Source: Alphaproteobacteria bacterium (lineage in GTDB: Bacteria > Pseudomonadota > Alphaproteobacteria > Sphingomonadales > JAKSBY01). Taken from it: 64,000 bases of DNA. Below, in pieces: positions 27,045-29,318 of this stretch. Made by a program: the position numbers and the translations under genes. The stretch is from assembly GCA_021774625.1 (NCBI GenBank), contig JAJFIV010000030.1, forward strand, positions 64,493 through 128,492, read 5' to 3'. The notes under the pieces are model-generated. The model worked only from the letters and a program-made list of their open reading frames with translations, was not told the origin of the DNA and did no database searches. Positions within the stretch are counted from its first letter, which is position 1. Each line of letters starts with the position of its first letter.

Positions 27045-27734
27045 ATGCGTAAACCATCGCGCATTCTTGTTTTTTCTTTGTCACTGGTTGGCGGGCTTTA
27101 CTTGCTTCCGGTGAGCGCCGGCCTTCCAGCCGGCATGTCCTCTGACTATGAATATTCGATTTTTAGAAATGACAGGGAAATCGGCCGGCATATTGTGCGG
27201 TTTGAAGAAACCAGCGACGGTATAAAGGTCGATATTGAAGCCCAAATCCGCATCAAGGTGGCCTTTATTACCGTGTTTCGCCTGAACCACAATGCCAGTG
27301 AATTATGGCAGGGCGGACAACTGGTGACGATGTCGGCCCTGACCAAACGCAATTCGAAAAAAGCCCATGTCGAGGTCACGGCCCGCCCCGGCCATCTGGA
27401 AGTTAAAACCGACAAGGATGTTACGTCTGCCCCTCTGGATTCGGTTCCCACCAGTTTTACCAAAACCAATTTGTGGGAGACGGTGGGGGACAGACCGCTG
27501 GTTCTGCTTGATACCCTGACCGGTCAGCAACAACCGTCCGATTTTCGTGCCGGGGGCCTTGTCGGCCTGGACCTTGACGGCCGGACAGTTGATGCCCGCT
27601 ATTATTCCATCACCCGCCGCGACACCGGCGCGCTGACCCATGAATTCTGGGTGGATGAAGCGGGGAACATGATGCAGACACATCTGATGACCAAGGATGA
27701 CCAGTCAATCTATTACCGCTTTTCCGGTATTTGA
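27045..27734 (+). CDS. DUF6134 family secreted protein
   Basis: A 229-residue exported protein with a signal peptide (RILVFSLSLVGGLYLLPVSAG). The mature part is beta-rich, starting YEYSIFRNDREIGRHIVRFEE, the typical opening of DUF6134 proteins, and ending YYRFSG. Its function is unknown; the fold is probably a lipocalin-like or LolA-like barrel (inference). It is followed by a 390-bp region holding palindromes, a sigma-54 promoter and a terminator, and is not obviously co-transcribed with gcdH. Confidence 0.8.
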   Translation: MRKPSRILVFSLSLVGGLYLLPVSAGLPAGMSSDYEYSIFRNDREIGRHIVRFEETSDGIKVDIEAQIRIKVAFITVFRLNHNASELWQGGQLVTMSALTKRNSKKAHVEVTARPGHLEVKTDKDVTSAPLDSVPTSFTKTNLWETVGDRPLVLLDTLTGQQQPSDFRAGGLVGLDLDGRTVDARYYSITRRDTGALTHEFWVDEAGNMMQTHLMTKDDQSIYYRFSGI

Positions 27735-27747
27735 GCCTCCGTCCCCC

Positions 27748-27806
27748 TGTTCCAATTCGGGACAGTGTGCCAAATCGGCACAACTAAATTGTCCCAAAAC
27801 AATACA
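27748..27806. promoter_or_regulatory. Three tandem 17-bp palindromes, probable enhancer-binding sites
   Basis: TGTTCCAATTCGGGACA (27748-27764), TGTGCCAAATCGGCACA (27766-27782) and the weaker TGTCCCAAAACAATACA (27790-27806) share the pattern TGTnCC-N5-GGnACA. Their centres lie about 138, 120 and 96 bp upstream of the start expected from the sigma-54 promoter at 27868-27883. That is the usual place for an NtrC-family activator. The middle site is perfect in its 6-bp arms. Confidence 0.6.
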
Positions 27807-27867
27807 TTAACTTTTATTAAAATTAACGTTAACTGTTAAGTTATTGATTTTTATGGAATAAAATTTC

Positions 27868-27883
27868 TGGCACGGAGTTTGCT
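27868..27883 (+). promoter_or_regulatory. Sigma-54 (RpoN) promoter
   Basis: TGGCACGGAGTTTGCT matches the -24/-12 consensus at every conserved base: GG at 27869-27870 and GC at 27881-27882 are separated by exactly 10 bp. It lies in a gene-free region, reads rightward, and is followed about 110 bp later by a strong terminator and preceded by three palindromes. Confidence 0.75.
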
Positions 27884-27893
27884 CTGTAAAGGG

Positions 27894-28029
27894 ATGTCAT
27901 CCCGATAACTTTGCCTGAGGTTAGAAGGTTGACAGTGTGTCCCGAGTACGGCGCCGGCTCGTTTGCCTGAGCGGGCCGGCGCTATGAACTTCGGCGGCGG
28001 GTCTCTGACCCTCCGCCTTTTTCTTTTTC
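27894..28029 (+). ncRNA. Candidate sigma-54-dependent small RNA, about 135 nt
   Basis: No protein-coding frame fits here, yet the stretch has a promoter, internal structure and an end. From the expected start near 27894 it contains a stem GCGCCGGC (27951-27958) with GCCGGCGC (27975-27982), then a terminator stem and T-run at 27993-28029. The only frame beginning ATG near the end (27984) runs through the terminator and is not credible. I do not recognise it as SRP RNA, 6S, tmRNA or RNase P RNA. The call is inference from signals; expression is untested. Confidence 0.55.
27993..28029 (+). terminator. Strong rho-independent terminator
   Basis: An 11-position stem (one C-T mismatch) with a 3-nt TCT loop, left arm 27993-28003 and right arm 28007-28017, is followed directly by TTTTTCTTTTT. 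It is too far from DUF6134 (about 260 bp) to be that gene's obvious end and probably ends the small RNA. Confidence 0.8.
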
Positions 28030-28127: not shown

Positions 28128-29318
28128 GTGACTGCACCGACTCCCTGGCCCGGGATGGACTGGGCCGATCCTTTGCTGCTGACGGAAAGTCTGAGCGAAG
28201 AAGAGCGGCTGATCCGGGACAGCGCCCATGCCTATTGTCAGGAAAAGCTGATGCCGCGGGTGCTGGAAGCCAACCGGCATGAAATTTTCCACCGGGAAAT
28301 CATGACCGAGATGGGCGAGCAGGGCTTGCTGGGGCCGACCATCGAAGGCTATGGCTGCGCCGGGGTCTCCTATGTCGCCTATGGCCTGATTGCGCGGGAA
28401 GTGGAGCGGGTCGATTCCGGTTACCGTTCCGCCATGTCGGTGCAGTCCAGCCTCGTAATGTATCCGATCTATGCTTACGGCAGTGAACAACAGCGGGAGA
28501 AATACCTGCCCAAACTGGCGAGCGGCGAATGGGTCGGCTGTTTTGGCCTGACCGAGCCCGATGCCGGGTCCGATCCCGGCGCCATGAAAACCCGGGCGAA
28601 ACCGGTGGATGGCGGTTATTCTCTCTCGGGCTCGAAAATGTGGATCACCAATTCCCCCATCGCCGATGTGTTTGTCGTCTGGGCCAAAACCGATGACGGC
28701 GTCATCCGGGGGTTCGTGCTGGAAAAGGGCATGAAGGGCCTGAGTGCGCCGAAGATCGAGGGCAAATTCTCACTCCGCGCCTCCACCACCGGGGAAATCG
28801 TGATGGACGGGGTTTTCGTCCCGGAAGACAATCTGCTGCCCAATGTGGAGGGCCTGAAAGGGCCGTTCGGCTGTTTGAATAACGCCCGGTTCGGCATTGC
28901 GTGGGGCGCGCTGGGGGCGGCGGAATTCTGCTGGCACGCCGCCCGGCAATATACGCTGGACCGCAAACAGTTCGGCCGGCCGCTGGCTGCCAATCAGCTG
29001 ATTCAGAAAAAACTCGCCGACATGCAGACCGAAATCACCCTCGGCCTGCAGGGTTGTTTGCAGGCGGGACGGCTGAAGGAGCAGGGCAAGCTCGCCCCCG
29101 AAGTCATCTCCCTTCTGAAACGCAATTCCTGCGGCAAATCCCTGGACATTGCCCGCGCCGCCCGCGACATGCATGGCGGCAACGGCATTGCTGATGAATT
29201 TCACGTCATCCGCCATGTGATGAATCTGGAGGCCGTCAACACCTATGAAGGCACCCACGACGTCCACGCCCTGATCCTGGGCCGCGCCCAAACCGGCATC
29301 CAGGCCTTTTCCAACTGA
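28128..29318 (+). CDS. gcdH: Glutaryl-CoA dehydrogenase
   Basis: An FAD-dependent acyl-CoA dehydrogenase of 396 residues that oxidises and decarboxylates glutaryl-CoA to crotonyl-CoA in lysine and tryptophan breakdown. Distinguishing features of GcdH are [12 protein letters not shown], the FAD-binding [13 protein letters not shown] and [16 protein letters not shown], and the C-terminal [20 protein letters not shown], which holds the catalytic Glu (about E374). It stands alone, with no transporter or CoA-transferase gene beside it. Confidence 0.93.

Follow-up and report, generated by a model that had tools for sequence, protein, structure and literature searches.

A predicted small RNA with two identical loop motifs downstream of an enhancer-type sigma-54 promoter in Alphaproteobacteria

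The window analyzed in this work (the whole stretch of 64,000 nucleotides) carries on its forward strand, at 27892–28028, what we consider, with a probability of roughly 0.7, to be the gene of a trans-acting regulatory RNA, which would be driven through sigma-54 by an enhancer-binding protein (EBP) and would expose two identical seed loops. Judged from the available sequences, the RNA family is genuine and absent from Rfam. Very strong covariation supports this uncatalogued family, whose promoter is defined; a dedicated activator is probable, and a concrete candidate seed can be named.

Promoter, activator sites, and predicted transcript

The following features were distinguished in the region:

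27748–27764, no strand assigned: activator site 1 (predicted), TGTTCCAATTCGGGACA, exact; position conserved in homologues
27766–27782, no strand assigned: activator site 2 (predicted), TGTGCCAAATCGGCACA, exact; position conserved in homologues
27790–27806, no strand assigned: degenerate activator site 3 (predicted), TGTCCCAAAACAATACA; left half intact
27868–27883, + strand: sigma-54 -24/-12 element, TGGCACGGAGTTTGCT; sequence match, homologues keep TGGCA-N8-GC at the same place
27892–28028, + strand: small RNA (predicted), start placed about 12 nt downstream of the -12 element, end in the T-run of the terminator; family and covariation
27895–27934, + strand: hairpin 1; fold and covariation (helices 1-2, 14/16 pairs changed on both sides)
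27910–27919, + strand: loop motif 1, TTTGCCTGAG, proposed seed; near-invariant in alignments A4 and A5
27944–27991, + strand: hairpin 2; fold and covariation (helix 3, 12/12 pairs changed on both sides)
27962–27971, + strand: loop motif 2, TTTGCCTGAG, second copy of the proposed seed; no change of GCCTGA in alignments A3 and A4
27993–28024, + strand: terminator hairpin and T-run; fold, helices 5-6 covary

The -24/-12 element named in a preliminary description of this DNA was confirmed as a perfect match, unique in the window: in a scan of the 64 kb, TGGCACGGAGTTTGCT was the sole mismatch-free match to TGGCACGNNNNTTGCW. The same description placed three 17-bp TGTnCC-N5-GGnACA sites upstream. 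Two of them are exact (27748 and 27766, the only such copies in 64 kb, with 0.07 expected), whereas the third, TGTCCCAAAACAATACA, has a good left half only and departs from the pattern at two positions, so the set is better described as two sites plus one degenerate. The distances from the palindrome ends to the -24 element (103, 85, and 61 bp) agree with those given earlier.

The fold of the segment 27894–28027, at -62.6 kcal/mol (z = -4.8), has two hairpins followed by that of the terminator. An 8-bp GC stem had been described between promoter and terminator; a GC-rich stem is indeed present, but it comprises 15 or more pairs (hairpin 2), and the additional 5' hairpin 1 had been overlooked. 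In the window copy, TTTGCCTGAG is common to the loops of both hairpins. The strong terminator was found as expected, with its stem at 27993–28017 followed by the T-run. There is likewise no credible ORF: the longest complete one in the window RNA has 19 codons and starts from TTG, while the longest ORFs of the homologues are scattered between 0 and 38 codons without conservation, and therefore the RNA is read as non-coding. A small RNA of about 130 nt, running from about 27894 to the terminator, is strongly supported as a predicted transcript by the conservation and covariation described below.

Immediately upstream of this region, at 27045–27734, a gene of a DUF6134 protein with a signal-like N-terminus is localized, and such a gene adjoins the RNA also in G001. 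A scan of genome contigs for the neighboring proteins yielded nothing.

Conservation and covariation of the RNA family

By DNA sequence comparison alone, homologues were recovered in G001, of the same family, and in G015, of another family of the order (i.e., f1 and f2); a further match (L004) was rejected as spurious, since it sits within a REC gene. A covariance model built from three sequences (R1) matched 19 of 249 genomes of the order and reached further families, although some weak matches in family f6 were spurious. Those rejected (L029, L030, and L032-L036) were without a palindrome and were lost with the second model, R2, built from nine sequences; the second weak match in G076 (L037), also without a palindrome, dropped out in the same way. 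With R2, the search of alphaproteobacteria proposed in the preliminary description was extended to 399 genomes of the order, of which 30 have the RNA, with covarying stems. Most of these genomes belong to one family, which includes the culturable species Kordiimonas marina and K. gwangyangensis as well as Pseudokordiimonas caeni. The sequence of G264 (f6, L072) is tentatively regarded as a diverged family member. In a class-wide covariance search of a 385-genome sample, the RNA was found in the window's own genome only.

Within the 29 distinct sequences, aligned by fitting to the model, 92.7% of the pair cells were paired and 34 of the 39 pairs had changed on both sides; the covariation score reached 0.612, as opposed to 0.187 for shuffled and at most 0.125 for slid alignments. 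An unfitted MAFFT alignment of nine sequences showed the same, with 22 of 28 pairs and a score of 0.522 versus 0.253. While the stems vary, UUGCCUGA is nearly invariant in both loops across the homologues. No Rfam family reached its gathering score and nothing relevant appeared at E<=5, in line with the earlier failure to match the RNA to a known family.

As promoter DNA was excluded from the covariance models, the conservation of the promoter is an independent count. The pattern TGGCA-N8-GC occurs just upstream of the RNA in 29 of the 30 covariance-model matches (0.21 expected from shuffles), the thirtieth having a TTGCA variant; promoter and stems are both conserved in relatives. In these 29 homologues the -24/-12 element lies about 12 nt before the conserved structured RNA, as a broad definition of a sigma-54-dependent trans-acting small RNA would have it. 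At least one palindrome was found within 240 bp upstream in 28 of the 30 (0.18 expected), which ends 37-106 bp before the -24 element, the sites occurring in clusters spaced roughly 10-12 bp apart. The consensus of 50 sites is TGT-N-Y-C-A-W-W-W-Y-G-R-N-A-C-A, or about TGTNYCAWWWYGRNACA. As far as sequence can tell, the promoter region has the layout expected of an enhancer-activated promoter.

The genes around the RNA differ between genomes. The one before it is a class-V aminotransferase gene in some, as near the window copy, and in six loci (L021, L023, L024, L056, L057, and L071) it encodes a protein with a Cys-containing N-terminus (MVSIGVRGGGY..CLxCPAR), which looks Crp/Fnr-like. Downstream, the RNA ends 100 bp before an acyl-CoA (glutaryl-CoA type) dehydrogenase gene at 28128 and the same gene follows in G001 and G015, which could make it a structured, attenuated leader of that gene. 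Other genomes, however, keep the RNA in front of a different gene, often on the opposite strand, and the RNA ends in a strong covarying terminator, so that the leader reading is hardly credible. A covarying terminator, the lack of a conserved ORF, and variable downstream genes all point to an independent terminated unit, as expected of a small RNA gene.

The candidate activator

Three genomes were scanned for the palindrome. Besides the RNA, it was found at a PEP-CTERM gene, at two short ORFs, and, in each genome, just upstream of the start of one EBP gene. The scan for further sites near RpoN promoters, suggested earlier, was thus productive for the PEP-CTERM gene and the ORFs of 72 and 68 aa, but the EBP sites are not accompanied by a -24/-12 element. 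The PEP-CTERM gene lies outside the window, on contig C1 of the window's genome, G000 (L008 1-1517, L189 4609-5406). It shares the palindrome, here TGTCTCAAATTGGGACA, and has in TGGCACGATGTTTGCT a perfect match to the -24/-12 element, an arrangement that makes co-regulation with the RNA probable. The 72-aa ORF (L017, G000 C25:105385) and the 68-aa ORF (L016, G001 C636:657) also have both elements, and neither of them has a Pfam match. In G061, a PEPxxWA-CTERM gene (L044 1501-2408) has the palindrome upstream, with no clear -24/-12 element.

The EBP shows the REC-AAA+-Fis architecture; it has a GAFTGA/GSFTGA motif, and the aspartate that would be phosphorylated is intact. A single ortholog, scoring 455-895 bits, is present in 29 of the 30 RNA-bearing genomes, the next paralogs reaching at most 440 bits. 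In the 249-genome sample the EBP was found in 81 genomes, and the RNA in 27 of these 81 and in 2 of the 168 EBP-negative ones, a co-occurrence confounded by phylogeny, as most positives represent one family. The two RNA-bearing EBP-negative cases are a truncated ortholog at a contig edge and a 76%-complete assembly. In many EBP-positive genomes (f4, f8, and part of f6) no RNA was detected. Each of the 28 EBP leaders read has the palindrome, at 43-200 bp before the start of the gene, and so do four further EBP genes from genomes where no RNA was detected. No -24/-12 element adjoins the palindrome at the EBP promoter, and therefore autoregulation is suggested, in which the EBP would control, and probably repress, its own gene.

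Since the promoter of this one EBP shares the palindrome and its gene co-occurs with the RNA, this specific protein appears to drive the RNA, its binding being deduced from these two observations. Of the earlier claim of an NtrC-type-activated small RNA of about 135 nt, the part on a small RNA (about 130 nt) that depends on sigma-54 and an enhancer-bound activator is strongly supported, whereas "NtrC-type" holds only broadly, as the cognate-looking EBP is neither NtrC nor PrsR.

NtrC itself had to be considered, as a nitrogen-starvation RNA resembling NrsZ could be activated from palindromes that are in fact NtrC boxes. Their length, spacing, and TGnnCC-N5-GGnnCA outline resemble such boxes, and these genomes commonly encode regulators of the NtrC type. 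NtrC boxes have TGC/GCA outer arms. The conserved third base T and the TGT/ACA arms of most of the 50 sites argue against this assignment, and so does the recurrence of the palindrome in the promoter region of another EBP, which scores 398 bits against the NtrC profile (cut-off, 558.6). NtrC is thus probably not the activator, and we judge the nitrogen-starvation reading quite improbable.

The other candidate was PrsR, the response regulator of the PEP-CTERM box, which would place the RNA in the PrsK-PrsR regulon. Upstream of PEP-CTERM genes, a motif of 17 nt was described that is followed, after about 63 nt, by a -24/-12 element (Haft et al. 2006, PMC1569441), and the window's genome has PrsK, PrsR, and PrsT plus the PEP-CTERM gene bearing the present palindrome. 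The published motif, however, ends in TTTACA. Moreover, most RNA-bearing Kordiimonadaceae are without a PrsR above the cut-off (the best E-value, about 1e-110, is paralog background), while f6 genomes having PrsR mostly lack the RNA. Among the RNA-bearing genomes, G011, G015, G023, G061, G064, and G076 gave no PrsR above the cut-off. Activation by PrsR was therefore rejected as highly improbable. The full PrsK-PrsR-PrsT set of the window's genome is localized on contig C10 (L188 6310-12666), adjoining exopolysaccharide-type genes; two EBPs are therefore linked to PEP-CTERM genes in this genome, and their sites are different.

As for the affiliation of the EBP that we favor as the activator, LuxO was its best match in both NCBIfam and PDB, with 409.5 bits versus a LuxO cut-off of 800. 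Its nearest annotated relative in a plasmid/chromid collection is a Sinorhizobium (S. meliloti) EBP encoded beside pyk (44-52% identity, versus 35-38% to paralogs), which is probably TacA. The palindrome was not found upstream of the homologous EBP genes of Sinorhizobium or Tistrella, and in Methylobacterium only a 2-mismatch match is present. By sequence, the clade is placed near LuxO by profile and near the Sinorhizobium EBP, which itself is probably TacA. One of the collected records, CP090106.1 (L226), is titled S. meliloti pSymB; at 3.7 Mb and with pyk and other chromosomal genes, its label looks wrong.

Possible targets and comparison with known systems

The complement of the loop motif, TCAGGC, was found in 5 of 28 EBP leaders (0.34 expected; 0 of 500 shuffles), a count uncorrected for kinship. 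These leaders come from families f1, f2, f5, and f7; that of G032 has TCAGGC twice in tandem, and TCAGGCAA occurs in those of G011, G040, and G032. Most Kordiimonas-type EBP leaders are without the seed complement, and a duplex-energy test of the RNA loops against the EBP leaders gave a weak overall signal (combined p = 0.02). Taken together, negative feedback of the small RNA on the EBP mRNA is suggested.

Besides the EBP, no conserved mRNA targets were found. Searches for TCAGGCAA near ATG and for tandem seeds returned too many coding matches, and among the matches read in the window's genome only a few had credible starts. Another possible target, the best one besides the EBP, is a 140-aa ORF without a Pfam match (L174), which is directly preceded, by the ribosome-binding region, by a tandem CAGGCAAAAATCTCAGGCAAAA (L174 105-140, G000 C30:63755-63790). 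The leader of the 68-aa ORF of G001 (L016) also contains two copies of the seed complement.

Twin near-invariant loops on variable stems are reminiscent of decoy RNAs as well, and the lack of a broadly conserved mRNA target would suit a sponge that titrates a protein or another small RNA, its identical loops serving as decoys and not as mRNA antisense. The enrichment of TCAGGC in EBP leaders speaks against such a sponge, and the tandem seed complements (the EBP of G032, the 140-aa ORF on C30 of G000, and the 68-aa ORF of G001) fit a two-seed antisense RNA, which leads us to consider the sponge unlikely.

The antisense reading may be pictured as follows. The phosphorylated EBP would bind two or three palindromes and switch the RNA on through RpoN, and the two loops would act as identical seeds pairing with mRNA leaders that bear UCAGGC. 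In several lineages the EBP mRNA would be among these targets, so that the regulator would be subject to negative feedback of the LuxO-Qrr type. A PEP-CTERM (surface/exopolysaccharide) gene of the window's genome also seems to belong to the regulon, and the RNA may therefore take part in surface or biofilm-type switching.

Among the known systems, the PrsK-PrsR regulon resembles the present one in its 17-nt motif, -24/-12 element, and spacing, but no RNA was described there (PMC1569441), and most of the RNA-bearing genomes are without PrsR. Like the NtrC-dependent nitrogen RNAs of the NrsZ and NalA type, the present RNA has a sigma-54 promoter preceded by palindromic boxes for an activator; it differs in the box and the EBP clade, and no Rfam match links them. 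CbrB-dependent CrcZ and CrcY of Pseudomonas are EBP- and sigma-54-dependent small RNAs too. CrcZ is a decoy of about 400 nt with repeated CA-rich motifs, and the only Rfam match to it here scored 13.6 bits, on the other strand, with a gathering score of 95. Given the lack of an Rfam match, the unlikely involvement of NtrC or PrsR, and no likeness to CrcZ, the RNA represents a new family among small RNAs of the known, EBP- and sigma-54-driven kind.

The EBP's nearest annotated relative leads to TacA, although the Sinorhizobium gene is without the upstream palindrome. To our knowledge, no TacA-controlled small RNA has been described. TacA is one of seven EBPs of S. meliloti, of which only NifA, DctD, and NtrC have known targets (PMC3616915), and in Caulobacter the ShkA-ShpA relay, which is under c-di-GMP control, has TacA as its output (PMC7010744).

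The arrangement most resembles LuxO-Qrr of Vibrio, with an NtrC-family response regulator, a sigma-54 promoter with upstream activator palindromes, an RNA of about 100-140 nt with several hairpins and a terminator, and feedback on the regulator, which is here suggested. It is not related to that system: no Qrr match was found in Rfam and the activator and its site are different, so the RNA is not a Qrr, and furthermore the host belongs to another bacterial class, the EBP scores far below the LuxO cut-off, and the two loops present identical GCCUGA motifs. Tentatively, it could be an independent counterpart of LuxO-Qrr, in which a TacA-like, possibly c-di-GMP-linked, autoregulated regulator and a twin-seed small RNA, acting back on the regulator mRNA and on surface/exopolysaccharide genes, would form a switch of the sessile state. 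Sigma-54/EBP-driven small RNAs elsewhere (Qrr, CrcZ) work as switches. If this non-homologous, TacA/LuxO-like-controlled system is confirmed, the circuit design would have arisen more than once, and an RNA output could be assigned to a family of regulators linked to the transition from the motile to the sessile state.
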